A stretch of 64,000 nt of DNA from Natrinema amylolyticum (lineage in GTDB: Archaea; Halobacteriota; Halobacteria; Halobacteriales; Natrialbaceae). The stretch spans positions 620,001 to 684,000 of the forward strand of contig NZ_JAIWPJ010000002.1 of NCBI RefSeq assembly GCF_020515625.1, read 5' to 3'. The notes below the pieces were generated by a model. That model did no database searches. It had not been told where the DNA came from and saw nothing but the letters and a program-made list of their open reading frames with translations. Shown here in pieces: positions 38,678 to 53,509 of the stretch; the first letter of the stretch is position 1; the number at the start of each line of letters is the position of its first letter. The position numbers and the translations under genes were made by a program.

Positions 38678-40606
38678 ATGACTGAACTCGGCGGTTTCCA
38701 GGACCGCGTCGCACGAATCGATCTCAGCGATGGGGAGGTCGCGTACGAGTCGATCGACGACGAAGACGCGAAGAAATATATCGGCGCGCGGGGACTCGGG
38801 GTGAAGTACGTCTTCGATCAGGGGCCTGACGTCGATCCGCTCGGACCCGACAACCTGCTCGCCTTCATGAACGGCCCGCTGTCGGGAACGCAGGTGACGA
38901 TGAGCGGCCGAATCGCGATCTGCACCAAGTCGCCGCTGACCGGGACCGTCACCGACAGCCACCACGGCGGCTGGTCCGGTGCCCGGCTCAAGTGGGCCGG
39001 CTTCGACGGGCTGCTGTTCGAGGGGCAGGCCGACGAACCGGTCTACGCCTACGTCGAGGACGGGGAGGTCGAACTCCGGGACGCCTCCCACCTCTGGGGC
39101 ATGGGCTTCCACGAGACGCGAGACACCATCGAAGAGGAGGTCGAGGGCTCCTACGGCAAGAACCTCAGCATCATGGGAATCGGGACGGCGGGCGAGAACC
39201 TCGTCCGATACGGCAACATCATGAACGAAGACGACCGCGCCTCCGGGCGCGGCGGCACGGGCTGTGTCGCCGGGTCGAAGAAGCTCAAGGCGGTCGTCGT
39301 CAAATCGGGAACGAGGATGCCGAAGCCGGCCGATTCGGAGACCTTCAAGGAGGGCCACCAGCAGGCGATGCAGGCCATCCAGGAGTCGGAAGTCACCGCG
39401 CCCAACGAGGGCGGTCTCTCGATGTACGGGACGAACGTCCTCATGAACATCACCGAGGAGATGGACGGTCACCCGACGAAAAACGGCGTCTATACCTCGG
39501 GGGACTCGTACAACGAGGGCGAAGCGGACCGACCGCACGACCTCGACGCCGAGCGCATCAGCGGCGAGAACGTCCGCGAGAACATCCTCGTCGACGAACC
39601 GACCTGTCACTCCTGTCCGGTCGCCTGCAAGAAGGAGGTCGAGGTCGACGTGATGCACAAAGGCGAGGAGATGAACGTCCGGATGGAGTCCTACGAGTAC
39701 GAGTCCGCCTGGGCGCTCGGCACCAACTCGGCCAACGACGATCGCGACAAGATCGCGGTCATGATCGATCGGTGTAACGACTTCGGCATGGACACCATCG
39801 ATACGGGTAATATCCTCGCGATGGCCATGGAGATGAGCGAGAAGGGGTACATCGACGAAGACATCGACTGGGGCGACCCCGACCAAATGATCGACATGAT
39901 CGAGCGGATCGCCCACCGCGAGGACGATCTCGCCCACACGCTGGGCGAGGGCGCGGAACGGATCGGCGAAGCGTTCGACGCGCACGACTCCCGACTGGAC
40001 GTGAAAGGCGAGACCATCGCCGCCTACGATCCCCGTTGCATGAAGGGGATGGGCATCGGTTACGCCACCTCGAACCGCGGGGCCTGCCACCTTCGTGGCT
40101 ACACCCCTGCCGCGGAGATCCTCGGCATCCCGGAGAAGGTCGATCCCTACGAGTGGGAAGGAAAAGGCGAACTCACCGCCCAGTTCCAGGATCTCCACGC
40201 GATCTCGGACTCGTTCGATATCTGCAAGTTCAACGCATTCGCCGAAGGCATCGAGGAATACGTCGCCCAGTACAACGGCATGACCGGCCGCGACGTCACC
40301 GAGGACGAACTCCTCGAGGCCGGCGAGCGGGTCTACAACCTCGAGCGCTACTACAACAACCTCAACGGCTTCGACGGCAGCGACGACTCGCTGCCAGAGC
40401 GCTTCCTCGAGGACGGCATCCGCGGCCAGGGTGCCAGCGAGGGCGAGTACTGCGAACTCGAGGAGATGAAAGAAGAGTACTACGACTACCGCGGCTGGGT
40501 CGACGGCGTCGTCCCCGACGAGAAACTCGACGAACTCGGGATCGAGGTCGGCCCCGGCACCGGCGTCAGCAGCGAGGGCGGCGTGGCCGCGTCGGGCGAC
40601 GACTGA
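38678..40606 (+). CDS. aor: Aldehyde:ferredoxin oxidoreductase family tungstoenzyme
   Basis: A 642-aa enzyme oxidising aldehydes to acids with ferredoxin as acceptor, in the cytoplasm. The 4Fe-4S ligands are C310, C313, C317 (CHSCPVAC) and C516 (DICKF). Pterin motifs around 90-110 (SHHGGWSGARLKWAGFDG) and 450-470 (DPRCMKGMGIGYATSNRGAC) are present. The length is normal. Tungsten is expected from family knowledge. An AT-rich upstream (TTATTGGTTTGTGG) likely contains its promoter. Confidence 0.93.
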   Translation: MTELGGFQDRVARIDLSDGEVAYESIDDEDAKKYIGARGLGVKYVFDQGPDVDPLGPDNLLAFMNGPLSGTQVTMSGRIAICTKSPLTGTVTDSHHGGWSGARLKWAGFDGLLFEGQADEPVYAYVEDGEVELRDASHLWGMGFHETRDTIEEEVEGSYGKNLSIMGIGTAGENLVRYGNIMNEDDRASGRGGTGCVAGSKKLKAVVVKSGTRMPKPADSETFKEGHQQAMQAIQESEVTAPNEGGLSMYGTNVLMNITEEMDGHPTKNGVYTSGDSYNEGEADRPHDLDAERISGENVRENILVDEPTCHSCPVACKKEVEVDVMHKGEEMNVRMESYEYESAWALGTNSANDDRDKIAVMIDRCNDFGMDTIDTGNILAMAMEMSEKGYIDEDIDWGDPDQMIDMIERIAHREDDLAHTLGEGAERIGEAFDAHDSRLDVKGETIAAYDPRCMKGMGIGYATSNRGACHLRGYTPAAEILGIPEKVDPYEWEGKGELTAQFQDLHAISDSFDICKFNAFAEGIEEYVAQYNGMTGRDVTEDELLEAGERVYNLERYYNNLNGFDGSDDSLPERFLEDGIRGQGASEGEYCELEEMKEEYYDYRGWVDGVVPDEKLDELGIEVGPGTGVSSEGGVAASGDD

Positions 40607-40734: not shown

Positions 40735-41523
40735 GTGACTCGTGACCGATCGCTCCCCTCGCCGCGATTCGATTTCGGAATCTACCACTGGCGGCGACGA
40801 TTCCGATCGATAGCTGTCTGGCTCTTCGTAGCCGTCCTCGCTGCCGTCTCTCGGCGGCGGACCGACGATCCCCGTCGTCGACTCCTCGCTGATGGAGCGA
40901 CGATCGGCGCGAGCGTCCGCGTGGCCGGGGTACTACGCGGGCTGCTCTCTCCCCCGCCGTGGGCGCTCGAGCGCGCCAAGTACGACGCGCTCGCGGTTCG
41001 GTTGCCGCTCGCCGGTGCGGATCGAATCCTCGACGTCGGCTGCGGCACCGGCCGCTCGCTCGTGGGACTGGCGCGGCACGTGCCGCCCGGATCGACGGTG
41101 ATCGGTCTCGACGTCTTCGACGATCGAATCATCCTCGGGAACGGGCCGGCGCTCGCGCGGCGCAACGGGGCCCGCGCCGGCCTCGCCGTGAGTCCGATCA
41201 TCGGCGACGCGACAGCGTTGCCGTTCGCGACCGGTTCGATCCCCGTCGTCACCGCCTGTCGGGTCCTCCACGACCTCGAGCGGCCGGCCGTGGACCGGAC
41301 GCTTCGCGAAATCCATCGCGTCTGCGAACCGAACGGAACGGTCGGCGTCCTCGAACTCCCGCTGGTTCCGGCGGGCGTCTCGGCCGATCCGGAACGGTAC
41401 TGGCGAGACCGGATTTCCGCGGCGGGGTTTCGGATCGACGTCTCCGAGCGGATCGAACGCGACGGCGTCGGCCCATATCTCGTAATCGTCGCGACAGCCA
41501 CCGCCGAGAGTCCCGACGGCTGA
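40735..41523 (+). CDS. SAM-dependent methyltransferase with N-terminal membrane anchor
   Basis: A 262-aa class I methyltransferase. Motif I is ILDVGCGTGRSLVGL (about 97-111), followed by GLDVFDDR and IIGDATALPFATGS. A single hydrophobic helix at about 25-40 (IAVWLFVAVLAAV) precedes it, suggesting attachment to the cytoplasmic membrane. The GTG start at 40735 is the most 5' option. A lipid or quinone substrate is possible but unproven. Confidence 0.8.
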   Translation: MTRDRSLPSPRFDFGIYHWRRRFRSIAVWLFVAVLAAVSRRRTDDPRRRLLADGATIGASVRVAGVLRGLLSPPPWALERAKYDALAVRLPLAGADRILDVGCGTGRSLVGLARHVPPGSTVIGLDVFDDRIILGNGPALARRNGARAGLAVSPIIGDATALPFATGSIPVVTACRVLHDLERPAVDRTLREIHRVCEPNGTVGVLELPLVPAGVSADPERYWRDRISAAGFRIDVSERIERDGVGPYLVIVATATAESPDG

Positions 41524-41650: not shown

Positions 41651-42718
41651 ATGGCAAGCGATCACTGCACCCGGCGTCGGTTCCTCGCGCTCGCGGGTAC
41701 CGGAACCGTCGCGGGTTGCGTCGGCGGCCCCGGTGCGAGCGGGGGAGCCAGCGACGGTGGACCGGCGGTCGACAACGTCACCCTGTTGCTCAACTGGCGA
41801 ATCAGCGGGCTGCACGCGCCGTACGTCGCGGCTCGAGAGAACGGTTTCTACGAGGAGGAGGGGTTCGACGACGTCACGATCGAGAGCGGCGACGGCGCCG
41901 ACTTCGCCGCGAATCAGGTCGCCCTCGGTAACGTCGAGTTCGCCGTCTCGAGCGCCGACCAGCTGCTCAACGTCAACAGTCGCGGGCTCTCGCCCCGCTG
42001 TGCGGCGGTCGTCATGCAGCGAAACCCGACCGTCGTCTTCGCCGATCGGGACGAGTTCGGCGAACTGACCGACCCCGAACAGCTCGAGGGGGCGACCGTC
42101 GGCAGCGGTCCCGGCATGGTCCGCGAGATGACGCGGGCGTATCTCGCCCGTCACGGCGTCCTCGAGAGCGTCGAATACGTCGACGCCGGCTTCGACACCG
42201 TCCAGCAGTTGCTCGCGGGCGATCTCGACGCCGCCGGTGGGGTCTTCGGTGACGTCGTCGACGCCGAACAGCAGGGTGCCGAGATCGACGTCCTGTCGAT
42301 CGACGAGACGATCCGATCGTACGGCCACCTCGTGGCCGTCGACGAGGGGTTCGCCGGGGAGAACGAGACCGCCGTCCGGTCGTTCCTCCGCGCGACGGCC
42401 AGGGGTGCGGTCTGGGCGAGCGACAATCCCGCGGACGCGATCGACGCGCTCGTCTCGGTCCAGCCGGAACTCGAGGAGGTCCGGGCGAACCAGCTCGAGA
42501 AGTGGGACCGGATGTCCACCGAGTACATGCTCTCGGACGCCGTGCGCGACCGCGGCTGGGGGGCGAGCGAGTCGGAACCGTGGGCGGAGACGTACGAGAC
42601 GCTCGCGGCGGCCGACGTCTTCGAAAACGACGTCGATCCGGCGTCGGTGTGGACGAACGAGTACCTCGACGATGAGTCCGAGTACATCGCTGACTACGCC
42701 GATCTCGTCGGGGCGTAA
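41651..42718 (+). CDS. ABC transporter substrate-binding lipoprotein, NMT1/ThiY-like
   Basis: A 355-aa extracytoplasmic binding protein. It has the Tat motif TRRRFLALAG and lipobox VAGC (Cys23). The NMT1/THI5-like fold begins LLLNWRISGLHAPYVAAREN and NGFYEEEGFDDVTIESGDG, and ends with GWGASESEPWAETYETLAAADVF. NMT1-type binding proteins take thiamine precursors, pyrimidines, nitrate, sulfonates or flavins; the ligand is not determinable. It is followed 84 bp later by a permease on the same strand; the ATPase is encoded on the other strand. Confidence 0.88.
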   Translation: MASDHCTRRRFLALAGTGTVAGCVGGPGASGGASDGGPAVDNVTLLLNWRISGLHAPYVAARENGFYEEEGFDDVTIESGDGADFAANQVALGNVEFAVSSADQLLNVNSRGLSPRCAAVVMQRNPTVVFADRDEFGELTDPEQLEGATVGSGPGMVREMTRAYLARHGVLESVEYVDAGFDTVQQLLAGDLDAAGGVFGDVVDAEQQGAEIDVLSIDETIRSYGHLVAVDEGFAGENETAVRSFLRATARGAVWASDNPADAIDALVSVQPELEEVRANQLEKWDRMSTEYMLSDAVRDRGWGASESEPWAETYETLAAADVFENDVDPASVWTNEYLDDESEYIADYADLVGA

Positions 42719-43668: not shown

Positions 43669-44451
43669 TCATCGGCCGGCCGTCGATCCCAGTCCCAGCC
43701 ACCGGTACGCCCATCGCTGGAGGAGAACGACGACGCCGTAGAGGACCAGTCCCTCGAGCAACAAGACGGCGAGCGCCGCGAGCATCACGTCCGGTCGGAC
43801 GTTCTCCGACCCCATCAACACCAGAAAGCCCAGTCCGTCGTCGGCGATCACCCACTCCGCGACGACGCTCCCGACGACTGCGAGGGTCACCGATTGCTTG
43901 AGCCCCGCGAACACGTCCGGGAGCGCGTACGGGAGATCGACGAAGACGATCCGCTCGAGCGTCCCGGCGTCGACGGAGCGCAGCAGTTCGCGGTGCGCCG
44001 TCGGCGCGCGGTCGAGTCCCGCCGCCGTGTTCAGGACCAGCGGGAAGAACGCGATGAGGGCGACGAAGACGACCGCAGTCGCCGTCCCCGTGCCGAGATA
44101 GATCAGTAGCAGGGGCGCGACGGCGATCGTCGGCACCACTCTGACGGCGACGAGATACGGGTACACCGCGGTGCGAACCCGCGGCAGGTACGCGACGAGC
44201 ACCGCCAGGAGGAAGCCGCCGACGATACCGGCGCTTCCGCCGCAGACCACCTTCTCGAGCGTGTACGCGGCGTTCCGAGCGTACAGCGTCGGGTTCCCCA
44301 GCAGCCGGGCGGCGACGGCAGTGGGCGGGGGCAACACGAACGAGGGCACGTCGCCGACGGCCGTCACGCCCCACCAGCACAGCGTTCCGACGACGAGGGC
44401 CAAGAGGGGATAGAACGCGTCACCCGCGAGGGTCCGAACGCTCGTCGTCAT
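43669..44451 (-). CDS. ABC transporter permease (SsuC/ThiX type), minus-strand half
   Basis: A 260-aa protein with about six helices and the coupling loop RSVDAGTLERIVFVDLPYAL followed by PDVFAGLKQSVTLAVVGSVV. It is homologous to, but distinct from, the plus-strand permease. Its start overlaps the ATPase stop by 4 bp, so the minus-strand genes form a tight regulator-ATPase-permease operon. Confidence 0.87.
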   Translation of the reverse strand: MTTSVRTLAGDAFYPLLALVVGTLCWWGVTAVGDVPSFVLPPPTAVAARLLGNPTLYARNAAYTLEKVVCGGSAGIVGGFLLAVLVAYLPRVRTAVYPYLVAVRVVPTIAVAPLLLIYLGTGTATAVVFVALIAFFPLVLNTAAGLDRAPTAHRELLRSVDAGTLERIVFVDLPYALPDVFAGLKQSVTLAVVGSVVAEWVIADDGLGFLVLMGSENVRPDVMLAALAVLLLEGLVLYGVVVLLQRWAYRWLGLGSTAGR

Positions 44452-45194
44452 CGGTCGTGCGCCTCGTGGAGGGTCCGCCGGACGGCCGCGACCTGCGTTT
44501 GAAACGATTGCGAGCCGAACACGTCCGCGTCGCGCGGGTCGGGTAACTCGACGTCGAAGCGCGCCTCGATCCGGCCCGGCTGGCCGCAGACGACGAGACA
44601 GCGGTCGGCGAGGAACACCGCTTCGGGCACGCTGTGGGTGACGAAGACGATCGTCTTCCGCTCGCGACGCCAGAGATCACGGATCTCGACGCCGAGTTCG
44701 TCGCGCGTGATTTCGTCGAGTTCCCCGAACGGTTCGTCCATCAGGAGGACGTCCGCACCGAGGTGCAGCGCTCGAGCGATGGCGACCCGCTGTTTCATCC
44801 CGCCGGAGAGCGCTTCGGGGCGCGCGTCTTCGAACCCCTCGAGCCCCATCGACCGCAGCAGTTCCCGTGCGTCCGCCTCGTTCGGCGCGTCTCCGGCCAG
44901 CTTCCGGAGGAACGTGACGTTCTCGAGCGCGCTCTTCCAGGGGAACAGCGCGTGCTGTTGGAAGACGAAGCCGACGTCGGCGGCCGCTTGCGCGACCGGC
45001 GGCGGTCGCCCGTCGATGCGAACGCGGCCGGTCGTCGGTTCCTGCAGTCCGCCGATCGTCCGCAACAGCGTCGTCTTCCCACAGCCCGACGGACCGACGA
45101 CCGTGACGAACTCGCCGTCCTCGATCCGGAGATCGACGTCCGCGAGCGCGGTGAAATCGTCGAACGCCACCGAGACGTTTTCGAGCTCGATCAC
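44448..45194 (-). CDS. ABC transporter ATP-binding protein
   Basis: A 248-aa nucleotide-binding domain with Walker A GPSGCGKTT, Q-loop FVFQQHALFPW, signature LSGGMKQRVAIARAL, Walker B VLLMDEPFGELD and switch His in FVTHSVPEA. It is of the nitrate/sulfonate/taurine (SsuB/TauB) group. It overlaps the upstream regulator by 4 bp and the downstream permease by 4 bp. It is the only ATPase for both permeases here. Confidence 0.94.
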   Translation of the reverse strand: MIELENVSVAFDDFTALADVDLRIEDGEFVTVVGPSGCGKTTLLRTIGGLQEPTTGRVRIDGRPPPVAQAAADVGFVFQQHALFPWKSALENVTFLRKLAGDAPNEADARELLRSMGLEGFEDARPEALSGGMKQRVAIARALHLGADVLLMDEPFGELDEITRDELGVEIRDLWRRERKTIVFVTHSVPEAVFLADRCLVVCGQPGRIEARFDVELPDPRDADVFGSQSFQTQVAAVRRTLHEAHDR

Positions 45195-46471
45195 GCGGTA
45201 TCACGGAGCAACGCTCCCTGCTCGAGGGCCGTCCGGAGGCGATCCCACATCTCCGGCCGGTGCCAGCCCCATCCCTGTTCGCGGACGGCGTCGCGCTCAC
45301 CGAACTCCGCCGCGGCCCGTTCGAAGGTCCGTCGGATCCGATCCGGCGGCTCGTCGCGCTCCGCCGCGATTCGCTCGGCCGCCGGTCCGGGATCGAGACG
45401 CGCCTCGGCCCAGCCGCCGGTCGTGCCCGCCAGAACGCCCCTGAGCGCCGACGACTGCGCCTCGAGCGTTCGTTCGTGAACGACGATCGTCGGCCCGTAG
45501 ATCGGAAAGTGATCGGTGAGCGCCATGACGTCGACGGTCAGCCCCTGGCGTTCCAACTCCAGTGGGTCCGCGAACGATCCGGTTACCACGTCGGCGTCAC
45601 CCTCTCGGAGTGCGGTTCGCTCTTCGCCGTTCGTGTCGACGATCCGGCTGTCGTCGGCGAACGTCGTCTGAGAGAGGAAGAGCTGCCCGAGCAGCCGCGT
45701 CTCGGAGTCGGGCGGCATACCGATCCGGCGGCCCTCGAGCTGCTCGACGCTCCGCAGCGGCTCGCCGAACACCTCGCGGACGGTGTAGAGGACGGTCATC
45801 GCCCGCTGGTAGCACACCGCGACCGGGACGACCGGCTCGTCCGCGGCCCGCGCGCGGACGACCGTCGCGGCACCGACGACAGCGAGATCCGCCGACCCCG
45901 ACGCGACGCGCTCGAGCGCGCGTCGCGACCCGTCACAGTGACTGAGCCGGACGTCTACGTCGAACGCGTCGTACCACGCCGCCGCGATCGCCGCGTGGAA
46001 CGGCAGGTGAAGGGCGTTCGACCGCCAACTCAGGGCGACCTCGAGCGGCGGGGACGGCGACGAGCCGGTACTTCGCGCTCGTTGCCCCGTCGACTCGGGT
46101 TCCCGGAGCGCGTCGGCGAGATCGAGCAACGCCTCGGCGTGTCCGTCGTACGTTTCCTCGAGCGTCCCTCGGATGTCGGCGGTCGGCAGCCACGCCGTTC
46201 GCGGCCGCCCGCCGTCGGAACCCGCCGGTCGAACGGTCGTCCGTTCGACCAGATCGCGGTCCTCGAGTCGCGTCACCGCCTCGTTGACCGTCGTTCGATC
46301 CACTCCCGTGCCGATCTGGAGATGGACGCTCGTCGTCGGATCGTCCTCGCGATCAGTCCGCAACAGCAGGTACGCGAGGAGTCGTGCCGGCGTCCGGCCG
46401 AGTCCGGCCGCGAGCCGACGGACGAGCGGGTCGTCCTCCTCGTCGAGTACCCAGAGGGACCGCGAGCGCAT
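45191..46471 (-). CDS. Fusion of a winged-helix DNA-binding domain with an ABC solute-binding-protein domain
   Basis: A 426-aa protein. Residues 1-100 form a winged helix: ARLLAYLLLRTDRED, TGVDRTTVNEAVTRLEDRDL (recognition helix) and a basic wing (VRPAGSDGGRPR). A Ser/Pro linker (about 125-142) leads to an NMT1/ThiY-like domain (143-425). That domain resembles the neighbouring lipoprotein (VALSWRSNALHLPFHAA; GWGWHRPEMWDRLRTALEQG). It has no signal peptide, so it should bind the imported ligand in the cytoplasm and control transcription. It is the first gene of the regulator-ATPase-permease operon. Confidence 0.85.
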   Translation of the reverse strand: MRSRSLWVLDEEDDPLVRRLAAGLGRTPARLLAYLLLRTDREDDPTTSVHLQIGTGVDRTTVNEAVTRLEDRDLVERTTVRPAGSDGGRPRTAWLPTADIRGTLEETYDGHAEALLDLADALREPESTGQRARSTGSSPSPPLEVALSWRSNALHLPFHAAIAAAWYDAFDVDVRLSHCDGSRRALERVASGSADLAVVGAATVVRARAADEPVVPVAVCYQRAMTVLYTVREVFGEPLRSVEQLEGRRIGMPPDSETRLLGQLFLSQTTFADDSRIVDTNGEERTALREGDADVVTGSFADPLELERQGLTVDVMALTDHFPIYGPTIVVHERTLEAQSSALRGVLAGTTGGWAEARLDPGPAAERIAAERDEPPDRIRRTFERAAAEFGERDAVREQGWGWHRPEMWDRLRTALEQGALLRDTA

Positions 46472-46721: not shown

Positions 46722-47639
46722 ATGCGTGGTGTCAACATGGATCAAACACTCACCATATCGAACACGACGGTCGCGGACCACCGCGATCTGGCGACAACGC
46801 TCGGCGTCGATGCGCCGGACGGCGGGGAGGTAACGTGGGAGCTACTCGCAGGCCAGATCGAACCGCGGACCGAATCGAGATTCGCCTCGAGGGGCGAAGC
46901 GATTCGGACCGATCTGGCCGGACAGCTCGATCACGACTTGCTCGAGCGGGAACGCGAGAACGTCGCGGCCGAAATCGGTCGCTTGCCGACCGTTCGCGAT
47001 GCCGGCGTCCCCGACGGGGAAACGGGACCGTATACAGCGGCTGCAGCGCCGGGCTGGCGGCTCTATAACCACTTACTCGAGGTCGGGTTCTTCGAGAGTC
47101 TCGACGAGAACCTGCCGCGGTTCACGGCGGACCACATCGAGACGACGACGCGCGAACTGGTTTTGGCGGATCCGCTGTCGTCGGCGCTCGATGACGTCGG
47201 TTTCGAGGAATCGGAGAAGACGTCGTTACTGATCGACGTCGCGAACAACGACGAGCGACTCGCTCGATGGGTTCCGTCGAATCAGATCCCCGATGGCGTC
47301 GAGTTCGACACGGCGAACGTCCCGCCGCTCCACCAGCGCGCGATGGGCGGGGCACTGCTGTGGATTCAGGGACTCGATAGGCACCTCTGGCAAAACGAAG
47401 TGATGATCACCGACGAGATCCTCGACGACGCGGTCAGGTACGTCAAGGCGATGCTGGGCGGTCTCTTCGTCTCGGCGACCGCCGCCTGCGATCTCGCCGG
47501 CGACGGACAGCTGACGGACGAACAACTGACAGCGGCGCTCACTGCGGGCTCGGCCGTCCAGATCGTCAGCCAGGAGGAACTGCTCCACTCCGTGTTCTAC
47601 ATTACTGACGAGATGCGCGCGCCGAGCGAACTGAGGTGA
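46722..47639 (+). CDS. Unrecognised helical protein, first gene of the quinoprotein operon
   Basis: A 305-aa soluble acidic protein, no signal peptide, predicted mostly helical. A C-terminal half rich in helices (ILDDAVRYVKAMLGGLFVSA; QIVSQEELLHSVFYITDEMR) contains DLAGDGQLTDEQ (257-268), which faintly resembles an EF-hand loop. It ends 6 bp before the quinoprotein gene and so is almost surely co-expressed. It may be a maturation or assembly partner, or an accessory subunit. An alternative start is the Met at residue 6 (46737). I do not recognise a family. Confidence 0.8.
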   Translation: MRGVNMDQTLTISNTTVADHRDLATTLGVDAPDGGEVTWELLAGQIEPRTESRFASRGEAIRTDLAGQLDHDLLERERENVAAEIGRLPTVRDAGVPDGETGPYTAAAAPGWRLYNHLLEVGFFESLDENLPRFTADHIETTTRELVLADPLSSALDDVGFEESEKTSLLIDVANNDERLARWVPSNQIPDGVEFDTANVPPLHQRAMGGALLWIQGLDRHLWQNEVMITDEILDDAVRYVKAMLGGLFVSATAACDLAGDGQLTDEQLTAALTAGSAVQIVSQEELLHSVFYITDEMRAPSELR

Positions 47640-47645
47640 TCACGC

Positions 47646-49355
47646 ATGGCACTACGCAACGACAAGGCCGTTCAGGCCGCACGAGACATCGAACTCAGAG
47701 AGATCGAAGACGGCTATACGCTAGTCGGCGGGCCAGAGGAATCGATCACCGAACAGCACGACACCGACCGGATTCCGGAAGGCGATGTCGACCAGGAGAT
47801 GCTGAGCAACACTGGGGACGATCCCGAGTCGTGGCTCATGTACGGCGGGAACTACGAACAACACCGGGCCACGACCGCCGACGTCATCACCCCCGAGAAC
47901 GTCTCCGACCTCGATCTCGAGTACGAGATGTCGGTCGGGACGGGCTCGAGCATGGAGGGGACGCCGATCGTGATTCCGGGCGACCCGCCGGTCATGTACC
48001 AGACGAACGGACCGAACCACATGAAGGCGATCGACCCCCGCGAGGGGGAGGTCCTCTGGAGCTACACCTATGCGGTCCCGATGGGGGTCGAACTGTGTTG
48101 CGACGACAACAATCGCGGGGCCGCCGTCTACGGTGACAAGGTGTATATGACGACGCTCGACTCGGGCGTCGTCGCGCTGGACCGGTACACCGGCGAGGAG
48201 GTCTGGTACACGAGCACGGCCGACCACGAGGTCGGCTACTCGGCGACGTGGGCACCGGTAATCCGGGACGGCACGATATATACGGGCAGCGCCGGCGGCG
48301 AGTACGGCGTCCTCGGATTCGTCACCGCGCTCGACGCGGAGAGCGGCGAGATGCAGTGGAAAACTGATACGCTCCCGGAAGACGAGTGGGTCGGTGCGAG
48401 TCGCGAGCACGGCTGTGGCACGACCTGGATGACACCCACGATCGACGAGGAGCGGGAAGTCCTCTACACGGCGGTCGCGAACCCCGGACCGGACTTCGAC
48501 GGGACGGTGCGGCCGGGGCCGAACTTCCCGACCTGCGGTACGATCTCGCTCGACCTCGAGAGCGGCGAGTTCCAGTGGGGCTTCCAGAGCAGTCCCCACG
48601 ATGTCTGGGACTACGACGCGGTCGCGCCGCGTGTGCTGCTGCGCGACGTAGACGTCGACGACGGGCCGTCGGAGATGGTCGTCGGCTCCGACAAGACCGG
48701 CTGGGTCTACATGATGGACGCCGAGTCCGGCCAACTCCACGAGCGCAGCGAGGAAATCTGCCAGCACATCAATATGTGGGAGATGATCCCCCACATCAGC
48801 GCCGACGAGCGGATCCCGTTCGTTCCCGGTGCGCCGGGTGGCAACGACTGGCAGCCGCCGTCGTACAATCCCGAGACCGGGTACGTCTACGTCGTCCACC
48901 AGAACTTCCCGCAGGACCTCTACTGGCGGTACGAGGAGTACAGCGAGGGCAACCCCTACTGGGGCGGCGGGCTGGACGATCCGGCCTCGGAGATGCCCGA
49001 CGAGTGGAACGAGAACATCACCGCCTTCGCCGCCGTCGATCCCGCGACGGGCGAGCGCGTCTGGCGCGAGTGGATCGAGAGCGAGGACGAGTTCTACATG
49101 TGGGGCGGCTCGATGTCGACGGCGACCGGACTGGTCTTCAACGGGACCCAGAACGGGAACCTCGTCGCGTACGACGGCGAGAGCGGCGAGCGCCTCTGGG
49201 AGTACGAGTTCGACGTCCCGATCAGCGCCTCGCCGATGAGCTGGTACGACCCTGGCGAGGAGAAGCAGTACGTCGCCGTGCAGGTCGGCGGCAGCGGCTG
49301 GCTCCGACAGGGAACCCGCGGCGACACGCTCGCCGTGTTCTCGATGGAAGCCTGA
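47646..49355 (+). CDS. PQQ-type alcohol dehydrogenase (quinoprotein) with lanthanide-type active site
   Basis: A 569-aa eight-bladed propeller quinoprotein. It has the vicinal disulfide pair C151-C152 in VELCCDDNNRG, metal ligands E219 (GGEYGVLG) and N279 (VANPGP), catalytic Asp D322 in HDVWDYDAV, and Lys350 (GSDKTGW). The residue two after the catalytic Asp is D324, the position that distinguishes rare-earth-dependent enzymes (XoxF, PedH) from calcium enzymes, which have Ala or Ser. No Tat or Sec signal is visible at the N-terminus, unusual for this exported family. The cupredoxin gene 24 bp downstream is the likely electron acceptor. Confidence 0.87.
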   Translation: MALRNDKAVQAARDIELREIEDGYTLVGGPEESITEQHDTDRIPEGDVDQEMLSNTGDDPESWLMYGGNYEQHRATTADVITPENVSDLDLEYEMSVGTGSSMEGTPIVIPGDPPVMYQTNGPNHMKAIDPREGEVLWSYTYAVPMGVELCCDDNNRGAAVYGDKVYMTTLDSGVVALDRYTGEEVWYTSTADHEVGYSATWAPVIRDGTIYTGSAGGEYGVLGFVTALDAESGEMQWKTDTLPEDEWVGASREHGCGTTWMTPTIDEEREVLYTAVANPGPDFDGTVRPGPNFPTCGTISLDLESGEFQWGFQSSPHDVWDYDAVAPRVLLRDVDVDDGPSEMVVGSDKTGWVYMMDAESGQLHERSEEICQHINMWEMIPHISADERIPFVPGAPGGNDWQPPSYNPETGYVYVVHQNFPQDLYWRYEEYSEGNPYWGGGLDDPASEMPDEWNENITAFAAVDPATGERVWREWIESEDEFYMWGGSMSTATGLVFNGTQNGNLVAYDGESGERLWEYEFDVPISASPMSWYDPGEEKQYVAVQVGGSGWLRQGTRGDTLAVFSMEA

Positions 49356-49379: not shown

Positions 49380-50885
49380 ATGTCCAACGAACACGACTCA
49401 TCCGACGACGTTTCCCGTCGCGGCGTGCTGAAGGGAACAGCGGCGCTCACGAGCATAGCCGCGATCTCCGGCGAGGCGGGCGCCTATCGCGACGCGTTCG
49501 ACTTCCCGATGCCCGTCTCCCAGAACGACGAGGCGGCCAGAACGCTCACGCTAACCGGTATCGTCGGCGGCTGGCTCGGTATCGCACCGCACGAAATCGA
49601 CGGCAAGTCCAACCCGCCGCTGCAGCTGGTCGAAGGCGAAATGCACGAGGTAGTCTGGATCAACGGGGACGGCTCGACCCACAACTTCAACATCACCGCC
49701 GGCAACTCCCTCGACGACGACGTCGAGGTGCTCGAGGCCACGGAGACAGTGACCGAACAGGGCGAGTTCACTACCCTCCAGTTTACCGCCACCGAGGAGA
49801 TGCAGGAGTACTTCTGCATGCCTCACCCGGCCCAGATGCGCGGTCCGATCGAACTGATCGACCCCGGCGACGTCAGGGAACTCGTCGTGCACGTCGAAGA
49901 CGAGAACGGTGAACCGCTCGGCGCCGAGGTCTACCTCGACGACATGCACTCGTACTCGAATCTCGCCGGCCGGCCGGATCCGTTCGCGGAGGAGGGACAG
50001 AGTCAAGAGTCGGAATCGCAGGAACCGGGTAACGCCACCGACGGCAACGCCACCGACGGTAACGCAACTGACGGCAACGCAAGCGACGGCGATGTTGAAG
50101 GCCAACAGACGCAGCCGCCCGCGATCGCCCGCTTCGATCTGCTCGAGGACGGCGAGTACGACCTCGAAGTCTGGACGTACGGCTACGAGCGGGTCACCGA
50201 CACGGTCGAGATCGACGGCGAGGACCGGGAGCTCACTGTCACGCTGTCCCCCGTCGAACCGGGCGACCCGGCCGAGACCTTCTCGATGCGCCTCGAGGAT
50301 GGCCAGTGGGTCGGACAGGAGCCCGACGCGATCGCCGACGAGACGAATCCGACCCTCGAACTCGAAGCGGACGAATCCTACGCGATCGAGTGGGAGAACG
50401 CGATCGGGCGCCTCCAGCCCGAGGGAGAGAACCGAGTCTACGAACCACTGCCCGGTCACAACCTCGCGATCGCCAGTAGCGGCGACACCAACGAGTGGAA
50501 CACGTACGTCCGCTCGGACTTCCTCAGCGAGGAGGGCGAAACCCAGACCGTCGAGTTCGTCGCGAACGAGCGGATGGGCGTCTACTTGGACCAGTCGCAA
50601 CTCGATGCAGTCGGGGAGATCGCCATCGGCGGCGCGGCCGACGGCGATGCGGCCCCCGTTGGCGACGAGACGAGCGATATGGGCGGCAACGAGACGGCCG
50701 AGATGGACGGCAACGAAACGGCTGACGTGGCGGGGAACGAGACGGCCGAGACGGAGGGCAACGAGACGTTCGAAGCGGCCGGGAACGAGACGGAGGGCAA
50801 CGAGACGTTCGAGACGACCGACAACGAGACGGACGGCAACGAGACGCTCGAGGCCCCCGGCAACGAGACGGGCGACGACGACTGA
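49380..50885 (+). CDS. Tat-exported cupredoxin with N-glycosylation-rich tail
   Basis: A 501-aa exported protein. The twin-arginine signal is SRRGVLKGTAALTSIAAISG. The type-1 copper site is H101 (GSTHNFNI), C146, H149 and M153 (FCMPHPAQMRG). A linker with four NA[TS] sequons (218-235) is followed by a beta-rich module resembling carboxypeptidase-regulatory or cupredoxin-like folds without copper ligands (about 245-415). The last 65 residues hold nine NET sequons (437-497). It probably carries electrons from the quinoprotein at the cell surface. Confidence 0.88.
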   Translation: MSNEHDSSDDVSRRGVLKGTAALTSIAAISGEAGAYRDAFDFPMPVSQNDEAARTLTLTGIVGGWLGIAPHEIDGKSNPPLQLVEGEMHEVVWINGDGSTHNFNITAGNSLDDDVEVLEATETVTEQGEFTTLQFTATEEMQEYFCMPHPAQMRGPIELIDPGDVRELVVHVEDENGEPLGAEVYLDDMHSYSNLAGRPDPFAEEGQSQESESQEPGNATDGNATDGNATDGNASDGDVEGQQTQPPAIARFDLLEDGEYDLEVWTYGYERVTDTVEIDGEDRELTVTLSPVEPGDPAETFSMRLEDGQWVGQEPDAIADETNPTLELEADESYAIEWENAIGRLQPEGENRVYEPLPGHNLAIASSGDTNEWNTYVRSDFLSEEGETQTVEFVANERMGVYLDQSQLDAVGEIAIGGAADGDAAPVGDETSDMGGNETAEMDGNETADVAGNETAETEGNETFEAAGNETEGNETFETTDNETDGNETLEAPGNETGDDD

Positions 50886-50978: not shown

Positions 50979-52109
50979 TTACACGTAATTCGCGATCCAG
51001 TACCCGACGTACAGCACGATCAGCGCCGCGCCGCCTGCGCGCGTCACGCGACCGCGAGCGAGCATTCCGGCGACGACGAGCAGGCACGCGGCGAGAAACG
51101 GCCAGTGGACCGTCATCACCGCACCCGCGGTATCGACGGGGCGCAGCAGCGCGATGAGGCCGACGTTGGCCGTCACGTAGAACACCGTGCTCCCGACGAC
51201 GTTCCCCACGGCGAGGTGTGCCCGGCCCCGTCGGACCGGTTCGACGGTGAGCGCCAGTTCCTCGATCGAAGCGATGAACGAGAGCACCGTCGCGCCGAAC
51301 GCGAGCCCCGAGATGCCCAGCGTCACGAAGATCCCCTCAGCGCTCACCACGGTGAGACCGGAGCCGACCGTCATGCCGACGATCGCGAGGACGGCGACGG
51401 CGAGGCTGAACCGGCCGCTCTTCCCCTCGAGATCGGGGACGAACTCGTCGAGGTCCAGATCGAAATCGACGTCGCGGTCGGGATGCGCGCGGCGGTCGGC
51501 GGCGCGTTCGGGGCCGGGTGCGGGCGCTCGATCGCCGCCGTTGGGTTCCGCGTCCGCATCCGCGTTTGCCACCGATCTCACCGCTCCGTCCGTCTTCCCA
51601 TCCGCCTCGAGATCGACGACCTCCTCGACCTCGCCCGAGAGCAGGAACGTCGTCTCCGACCGTCGCTCGTGCCAGAAGATGCCGGCGAGCAGCGGGACGA
51701 ACAGAACCGTCAGGATCGCGCCGTCCGTCCAGTCGAGCGTTCCGTCGATCGAGAGCGCGAACGCCGGGAGGGGGACGAGGACGAGTAGCAAGAGGTAGAT
51801 TCGAGGGACGGCCATCCGAAACGGGACGGCCAGTCCCGCGACGCCGACGGCGACCGCGAGGACGAACAGCGACTCGCCGAACACCGTCCCGAGCGCGAGG
51901 GTCGGGAGGTCGACGAACGCCGCCGTGACGCCGAGGATCGCGTTCTCGAGGTCGATCCCGGCGAGGACGACTGCGAGGAAAAACCCCGAGATACCGAGCG
52001 AGACGGCGCTCCGGGCGACGGCCTCGATGAAGATCTCGACGCACCAAATGACGAGCACGACGCCCGTCAGGAACAGGGCGGCGAGACCGACGAGTTCCAC
52101 GGCGCTCAT
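50979..52109 (-). CDS. Sodium/calcium exchanger-family membrane protein (I)
   Basis: A 376-aa CaCA-superfamily antiporter with two sets of about five helices. The alpha-repeats are around GIDLENAILGVTAAFVDLPT and TVLSFIASIEELALTVEPVR followed by NVVGSTVFYVTANVG. A large acidic cytoplasmic loop (about 155-225) separates them. It exchanges cations such as Ca2+ for Na+ or H+; the ion is not determinable. A second homologue is encoded 93 bp upstream on the same strand, so the pair is likely co-regulated. The last gene of that unit. Confidence 0.85.
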   Translation of the reverse strand: MSAVELVGLAALFLTGVVLVIWCVEIFIEAVARSAVSLGISGFFLAVVLAGIDLENAILGVTAAFVDLPTLALGTVFGESLFVLAVAVGVAGLAVPFRMAVPRIYLLLLVLVPLPAFALSIDGTLDWTDGAILTVLFVPLLAGIFWHERRSETTFLLSGEVEEVVDLEADGKTDGAVRSVANADADAEPNGGDRAPAPGPERAADRRAHPDRDVDFDLDLDEFVPDLEGKSGRFSLAVAVLAIVGMTVGSGLTVVSAEGIFVTLGISGLAFGATVLSFIASIEELALTVEPVRRGRAHLAVGNVVGSTVFYVTANVGLIALLRPVDTAGAVMTVHWPFLAACLLVVAGMLARGRVTRAGGAALIVLYVGYWIANYV

Positions 52110-52202: not shown

Positions 52203-53300
52203 TCAGTCCGGAATCGGGACGCCACCGAAGACGAGGAGCGCGATGATCCAGTACGCGACGTACAGTCCGACCAGTAGGTAGCCGTGTCTCCGCCGGAGAC
52301 GCCCGGTGGAGATGGCGGCGGCGGCGACGGCGGTCAGGAGGATCACCGCGGGAAGGTGGAAGACGAGTACGGACGGCGGAATCACGACGTCCGCGACGAA
52401 CGCGATCACGCCGACGTTCGCCGTGACGGAGAAGATCACGCTGCCGACGACGTGCCCGATCCCGATCTCGGGGATTCCACGCCGGACCGGTTCGATCGTC
52501 AACAGCAGGTTTTCCACCGTCAGGACCAGCGTGAGAACCGTCGCTCCGAAGACCGTCTCCTCGATCCCCCACGAGGCGACGATGGCCTGCGAACTCGCCT
52601 CGAGCAGGAGCGCGCCCGCGGCGACTCCGACGAGCGCGAGGAGCGACAGTCCGAGCCAGAAGGCCCCTTCGTGGCGCGACCCGGTGACGAACCGGTCCTC
52701 GGGAATCTCCTCGAGCACCGCTCTCCGTTCGATGTCCGCGAGATCGAGTCGGTCGATCGGAACGCCGCCGTCGGCCTCGATGCGGTCCGCGATCTCCGAG
52801 TCCCTGAACACGGGCACGTCGCGCTGGTACTCCCGGCCGACGACGTAGCCGAGGAGCACGACGAACACCGCCACGAGGACGAGCCCGTGGACGGTGCCGA
52901 GCGTGCCCGCGAGGACGAACGGAACCAGGAGAAACGGCGAGAGGACGAACATCAGCAGGTAATCGCGCGGGACTTCGACGGGAAACGGCCGAACGATCGC
53001 CGCTACCGCCAGCGTGATCCCGGTGATCGCGAGCGCGGTACCGAACGCCGTTCCGAGCGCGACTCGCTCGAGATCGCCCGCACCGAACACCAGTGCGACG
53101 ACGGTGTCGTCGAATTCGAAGCCCGTGAAGATGATCGCGAGCGTGAAGATCGAGACGCCGAGGCCGATCGCGGATCGGGTGAGATAGCTGATGAGTTTCT
53201 CGACGCTGTAAGTGAGCACGATCGCGCCGACGACGAGGACGACGTACGCGAACCACGGCCCCTGGCCGTCGATGGCGCTCTCGAGAAGATCTTCCACCAT
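52203..53300 (-). CDS. Sodium/calcium exchanger-family membrane protein (II)
   Basis: A 365-aa CaCA-type antiporter similar to the adjacent one. It has the alpha-repeat segments FTGFEFDDTVVALVFGAGDL and TVLTLVLTVENLLLTIEPVR followed by HVVGSVIFSVTANVG, and a shorter central loop. The Met at 53300 is chosen: it lies 27 nt after a TATA (CTATATG on the minus strand, within 53320-53333), whereas the in-frame upstream ATGs at 53372, 53327 and 53312 do not. Pairing suggests a heterodimer or two ions. Not counted as orthologous to a named exchanger. Confidence 0.83.
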   Translation of the reverse strand: MVEDLLESAIDGQGPWFAYVVLVVGAIVLTYSVEKLISYLTRSAIGLGVSIFTLAIIFTGFEFDDTVVALVFGAGDLERVALGTAFGTALAITGITLAVAAIVRPFPVEVPRDYLLMFVLSPFLLVPFVLAGTLGTVHGLVLVAVFVVLLGYVVGREYQRDVPVFRDSEIADRIEADGGVPIDRLDLADIERRAVLEEIPEDRFVTGSRHEGAFWLGLSLLALVGVAAGALLLEASSQAIVASWGIEETVFGATVLTLVLTVENLLLTIEPVRRGIPEIGIGHVVGSVIFSVTANVGVIAFVADVVIPPSVLVFHLPAVILLTAVAAAAISTGRLRRRHGYLLVGLYVAYWIIALLVFGGVPIPD

Positions 53301-53310
53301 GGCCCACTGC

Positions 53311-53338
53311 ATGTTAGCTGCCAACATATAGCTAACAT
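53311..53338 (-). promoter_or_regulatory. 9-bp inverted repeat around the TATA box of the exchanger operon
   Basis: ATGTTAGCT (53311-53319) and AGCTAACAT (53330-53338) form a perfect dyad with a 10-nt spacer (GCCAACATAT) that contains the TATA element. It is a strong operator candidate, for instance for a metal- or ion-responsive repressor. It has no copy elsewhere that I noticed in the window. Confidence 0.6.
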
Positions 53339-53509
53339 CCCGGAGAGGGAATTTCAGTGGAAATCTATACACGCTTTACGGACCGAACGGCGAAGCGATC
53401 GTCATCGCGCGGACTGTCCCGTCGCGAGGAAGGTGAGCCCTGTCCGTTTTCGAACCGAAAAGCCGCTATTCGAGTCGGAGAGTGACGGACGGCGAACGCC
53501 GACGGCTCG

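Follow-up and report, generated by a model that had tools for sequence, protein, structure and literature searches.

The question raised by this locus is whether a haloarchaeal quinoprotein dehydrogenase, which a preliminary description had singled out for its rare-earth type of active site, uses a lanthanide, and with which cofactor and which other proteins it would work. The window analysed is a stretch of 64,000 nucleotides from Natrinema amylolyticum (GCF_020515625.1, NZ_JAIWPJ010000002.1, positions 620,001-684,000, forward strand). The propeller reading frame had been delimited correctly in the preliminary description, which missed an obligate partner gene and a cupredoxin gene. The relevant features, in window positions, are:

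38678-40606, forward strand: aldehyde ferredoxin oxidoreductase (PF01314, E=5e-118)
40735-41523, forward strand: SAM-dependent methyltransferase, a conserved neighbour
41651-42718, forward strand: second NMT1/THI5-like substrate-binding protein (PF09084, E=9e-32)
43669-44451, reverse strand: ABC transporter permease
44448-45194, reverse strand: ABC transporter ATPase
45191-46471, reverse strand: NMT1/THI5-like ABC substrate-binding protein, a conserved neighbour
46722-47639, forward strand: obligate partner, 305 amino acids, predicted all-helical; Tat motif lost here (ADHRDLATTLGV) and present in relatives from other clades
47646-49355, forward strand: quinoprotein propeller, 569 amino acids, stop-free; C151-C152, R157, E219, W261, N279, D322, D324, K350
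49380-50885, forward strand: cupredoxin (halocyanin-like), 501 amino acids (Pfam Copper-bind, E=1.5e-9)
50979-52109, reverse strand: Na+/Ca2+ exchanger family protein 1 (PF01699)
52203-53372, reverse strand: Na+/Ca2+ exchanger family protein 2 (PF01699)

The propeller, which has no signal peptide, matches PF01011 in Pfam (E=3e-51) and the NCBIfam model TIGR03075 for methanol/ethanol PQQ dehydrogenases (E=1e-111); its score of 374.1 bits is below the curated cut-off of 480 bits, so that it is a relative standing outside the curated family. 'Alcohol dehydrogenase' should be read here as a family name only. Its best match in the PDB is the lanthanide-dependent PedH (6zcv/6zcw; E=1e-64 with the single sequence, 1e-95 with a profile). 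An AlphaFold2 model built from 31 homologues (pLDDT 84, pTM 0.89) has the quinoprotein propeller fold and again retrieved PedH first with Foldseek (6zcv, E=2e-40, TM 0.78), so that sequence and fold agree on PedH as the nearest solved structure. XoxF and calcium-type enzymes follow close behind in the same ranking, and the fold therefore cannot decide the metal. The N. amylolyticum genome holds 32 PQQ_2 domain matches, yet a single protein matching P0001 at E<1e-20. The propeller is present in 70 of the 391 Halobacteria genomes searched, and a search of open-licence papers for work linking haloarchaea to lanthanides or PQQ turned up nothing on these proteins.

The residues named in the preliminary description (C151-C152, E219, N279, D322 and D324 in the motif WDYD) all stand at those positions in the 569-amino-acid translation. 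E219, N279, D322 and D324 align on Glu199, Asn281, Asp323 and Asp325 of PedH, according to an alignment of the window propeller with 6zcw in which the mature chain index and the full-length PedH numbering are offset by 26 residues; these four PedH residues are the Pr3+ ligands in 6ZCW (PMC11845868). The residue preceding the glutamate (G218) is glycine, as in PedH and XoxF5, while 1kb0 and 1flg have Ala or Asp. Judged from the alignment, the propeller carries the full PedH-type set of metal ligands (Glu, Asn, Asp, Asp). Among 89 distinct haloarchaeal relatives, D322, D324, N279, W261 and K350 are invariant, and E219 is kept in 84 (Asp in three, Tyr in two). The two propellers with Tyr in place of the ligand Glu (L092:9259-11148, forward strand; L101:8944-10860, reverse strand) retain the D-x-D. 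All 62 propellers of the four nearer clades have the Cys pair, which every one of the 27 in the divergent clade lacks.

The preliminary description had proposed a phylogeny against XoxF and PedH as a check, and its outcome was unfavourable. A maximum-likelihood tree of 48 proteins (35 haloarchaeal, 13 bacterial; unrooted, drawn with midpoint rooting), whose PDB rows were taken from profile-search alignments and in which a short internal segment is missing from 1flg and XoxF5, separates all 35 haloarchaeal rows, by a branch with support 100/99, from XoxF5, PedH, the calcium-type QEDH and ADH-IIB. The window propeller thus lies outside both the XoxF and the PedH clades, and since the haloarchaeal propellers form a separate group, reading a lanthanide from the second Asp carries the metal rule beyond the clades in which it was tested. 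The clades referred to below (W, containing the window; M, its sister; T, C and D) were defined by sequence identity to the window propeller and are consistent with the tree as far as its rows go.

The stop codon of the partner gene is 6 bases before the propeller start. The partner has no match in Pfam or NCBIfam and no significant one in the PDB; it is predicted to be all-helical with high confidence (pLDDT 92), and comparison of its model with solved structures gave a best Foldseek E-value of 0.39 and, with VIA-align, a best Z of 8.0, to assorted helical bundles. Neither profile nor fold searches supported the idea that it might be a PqqC/TenA-like cofactor enzyme. Partner and propeller occur in the identical 70 of 391 Halobacteria genomes, and 98 out of 100 propeller ORFs have the partner directly upstream; the other two appear to result from a mis-called start and a split frame. 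No stretch of a diverse partner alignment was conserved enough for scanning a collection of 84,980 species, and the scan relied on two peptide patterns from a six-sequence alignment, which may miss distant relatives elsewhere: all 55 partner loci found are in Halobacteria, with a propeller downstream in 54, the remaining one (L114) being apparently cut by a contig end. Plasmid searches for the partner likewise returned haloarchaea only. On these patterns of sequence and occurrence, the partner appears to be a previously undescribed protein family, co-inherited with the propeller, and it seems indispensable for the enzyme. In Natrinema salinisoli and Halomarina sp. BCD28 (L161, L159), two divergent partner-propeller modules lie a few kilobases apart on one plasmid.

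The distribution of Tat signals suggests what the partner might do. A signal-like N-terminus is found on none of the 89 distinct haloarchaeal propellers. Our own regular expression and hydropathy threshold detect an RRxFLK-type motif with a hydrophobic stretch behind it on the partner in 3/3 modules of clade T, 8/8 of clade C and 21/26 of clade D (32 modules), and on no partner among the 22 modules of the window clade or the 28 of its sister; HMMER Tat-signal models detect 12-15 of 38 partners. A single loss of the motif, on the stem shared by the window clade and its sister, would fit the tree. In two loci, L088 and L094, a cupredoxin domain is fused to the N-terminus of the propeller (L088:8607-10703, reverse strand; L094:8548-10845, forward strand); these fusions have Asp for E219, no Cys pair and no Tat motif of their own, and their partners keep Tat. 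Tat motifs on partners of signal-less propellers and fusions favour the view that, in the clades with a partner Tat motif, the partner may act as Tat escort of a hitchhiking propeller.

The cupredoxin encoded downstream carries a Tat signal (SRRGVLKG) and, in its first domain, the type-1 copper ligands (HNF...CMPHPAQM); it is likely to be the electron acceptor of the propeller. Its second domain lacks copper ligands, and its C-terminus is a run of Asn-Glu-Thr sequons. A cupredoxin gene is found near all 22 modules of the window clade and near 23 out of 27 modules of the divergent clade; these and the other neighbour counts come from stretches of up to about 20 kb, some of them cut by contig ends, and from related genera that are not independent. 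NMT1/THI5-like ABC importers, the methyltransferase and the aldehyde ferredoxin oxidoreductase, all present in the window, recur near modules elsewhere. The nearby oxidoreductase and importer suggest a catabolic cluster, in which the aldehyde ferredoxin oxidoreductase (38678-40606) would be a possible second oxidation step.

The search for pqq genes, also put forward in the preliminary description, gave a negative result. The N. amylolyticum genome has no PqqC, and in none of the 391 haloarchaeal genomes searched, the 70 with the propeller among them, does any match exceed the PqqC cut-off. In the genomes tested, N. amylolyticum included, PqqD is missing and the PqqB and PqqE models gave only weak generic matches. 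The same searches, which covered PqqB, C, D and E and left out PqqA as too short, readily detected the genes of the positive control, a Sinorhizobium plasmid (PqqC 429, PqqE 607, PqqB 389 and PqqD 53 bits). A PqqC match of 19.4 bits in one genome (G059) was dismissed as chance or a generic relative; so were PqqE-like matches of at most 110 bits (cut-off 381), as chance or generic radical-SAM relatives, and PqqB-like matches of at most 43 bits (cut-off 245), as chance or generic metallo-beta-lactamase relatives. With no PqqB, C, D or E in the genome, PQQ, if used, would have to come from outside, or a related quinone would take its place.

The explanation that we prefer, and which we think could equally well turn out right or wrong, is that of a haloarchaeal quinoprotein dehydrogenase module made of a rare-earth-capable propeller, a partner serving as assembly or export escort and a cupredoxin as acceptor; we infer its metal, cofactor, substrate and compartment. 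The propeller would bind PQQ, or a quinone much like it, acquired from the surroundings, and a rare-earth ion or, failing that, calcium would occupy its metal site. It would oxidise an alcohol or aldehyde and pass the electrons to the cupredoxin. The partner would fold the propeller or act as its escort, and the two would originally have passed the Tat pore together as a hitchhiker complex; in the window clade, where the partner Tat motif is gone, the complex might ride on the Tat signal of the cupredoxin or work inside the cell.

How strongly the second Asp speaks for a lanthanide depends on where else it occurs. The preliminary description took Ala or Ser two positions after the catalytic Asp as the mark of calcium enzymes, which is right for MxaF and PedE and does not extend to the quinohaemoprotein 1kb0, with Thr there. 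No second Asp is present in the characterised calcium enzymes of the methanol/ethanol family (MxaF, PedE/QEDH), and this, together with the match of all four ligands and G218 to PedH, argues against a calcium (or magnesium) quinoprotein in which D-x-D would be ancestral to the superfamily and no sign of lanthanide dependence here. What lends that alternative weight is that D-x-D is present in 11 of the 13 bacterial rows of the tree, including those of Deinococcus and Streptomyces, from which the Glu ligand is absent; that E. coli mGDH, regarded as a Ca/Mg enzyme, has it too (PMC11996626); and that some divergent haloarchaeal members keep it with Tyr or Asp instead of E219, so that it may be conserved for another reason. 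D324 could sit next to Ca2+. Na+/Ca2+ exchanger genes, of which the N. amylolyticum genome has eight, two of them at this locus, moreover lie no more than 8.5 kb from roughly one module in three (~30 of 89); the exchangers could handle calcium or rare-earth ions. We consider the Ca/Mg alternative a serious one, somewhat short of an even chance. Given its occurrence in Glu-less members, most bacterial rows and mGDH, D-x-D is compatible with lanthanide use and is not proof of it. The rare-earth reading of the preliminary description is therefore kept in part: the residues are exact and PedH is nearest by sequence and fold, but the protein falls outside the clades that would have supported it, and its marker is widespread. 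Lanthanide dependence of the window enzyme is a prediction with about even chances, which makes the enzyme a good candidate for archaeal rare-earth use and not proof.

The remaining alternatives concern the cofactor and the compartment. The lack of PqqB, C, D and E in the genome, and of PqqC over its cut-off in 391 haloarchaea, would also be expected of a propeller working without PQQ, an empty or differently loaded quinoprotein fold of the kind evoked by the NCBI group name 'acido-empty-quinoprotein'; the second-best NCBIfam match of the window propeller, at 278 bits, is indeed TIGR04528 acido_non_PQQ. We find this improbable, because R157, W261, K350, D322 and N279 are kept by the 89 relatives with few or no exceptions, and such conservation of core PQQ-site residues makes the absence of any cofactor unlikely; besides, salvage of PQQ from the surroundings is known in many bacteria (PMC12124388). 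As for the compartment, the module could be cytoplasmic in the window clade and its sister, both devoid of Tat signals on partner and propeller, with the electrons of the sister going to a ferredoxin and not to a cupredoxin: among 29 sister-clade modules none has a cupredoxin nearby, and the neighbours are a 2Fe-2S ferredoxin (25/29), a coiled-coil protein (26/29) and a CDC48-type AAA ATPase (23/29). The coiled-coil-like protein, of about 165-175 amino acids, adjoins the propeller in L159:16751-17275 and L161:15353-15850. PQQ and a low-potential ferredoxin go poorly together, however, and in the window clade a Tat-borne cupredoxin gene begins only about 8-54 bases past nearly every propeller. 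We consider this alternative less likely than not.

The known systems closest to this locus each differ from it in some respects. With PedH/ExaF, the lanthanide-dependent ethanol dehydrogenase of 6ZCW, the propeller shares the fold, the four metal ligands, the Cys-Cys pair and the Gly before the Glu, but identity in the structural alignment is 26%, the clade is separate, and Lys (K350) stands where PedH has Arg; the window enzyme further lacks a signal peptide and pqq genes, and has an obligate helical partner and an adjoining cupredoxin gene. XoxF methanol dehydrogenases have the same D-x-D, Cys-Cys and Trp-Asn-Glu site; they form a separate clade and carry Thr at the position three after the Asn, which is Pro282 in the window protein. 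Instead of the cytochrome and solute-binding genes of a bacterial xoxF-like locus, the window has the helical partner and the cupredoxin. That lanthanide enzymology is little documented in archaea, as the preliminary description stated, is fair, except that quinoproteins with DYD were already known from heterotrophic marine Thaumarchaeota (PMC7300363). These are archaeal, have DYD in some cases, and have a blue copper protein as proposed acceptor; they differ in lacking Cys-Cys, in having signal peptides in 15 out of 21 cases and in that the genomes are said to encode PQQ synthase (PMC7300363). Bacteria whose quinoproteins depend on scavenged PQQ, such as E. coli, resemble N. amylolyticum in having a quinoprotein and no PQQ biosynthesis in the genome, but their importer PqqU is an outer-membrane TonB-dependent protein of Gram-negatives (PMC12124388).

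As new facts, the obligate partner and the lack of PQQ genes carry more weight than the lanthanide reading. A cofactor puzzle results: the PQQ pocket of these quinoproteins is intact, yet the class has no recognisable PqqC. At its broadest, the finding might mean that haloarchaea possess a distinct lineage of rare-earth-dependent quinoprotein dehydrogenases, which would use salvaged PQQ or a quinone made by an unknown route, depend on a haloarchaea-specific helical maturation or escort subunit and deliver electrons to blue copper proteins, one branch having moved to the cytoplasm; we put this forward tentatively, as a picture that is unlikely to hold in every part. With these genes, lanthanide use in archaea becomes directly testable in culturable strains of Natrinema, Natrialba and Halorubrum.
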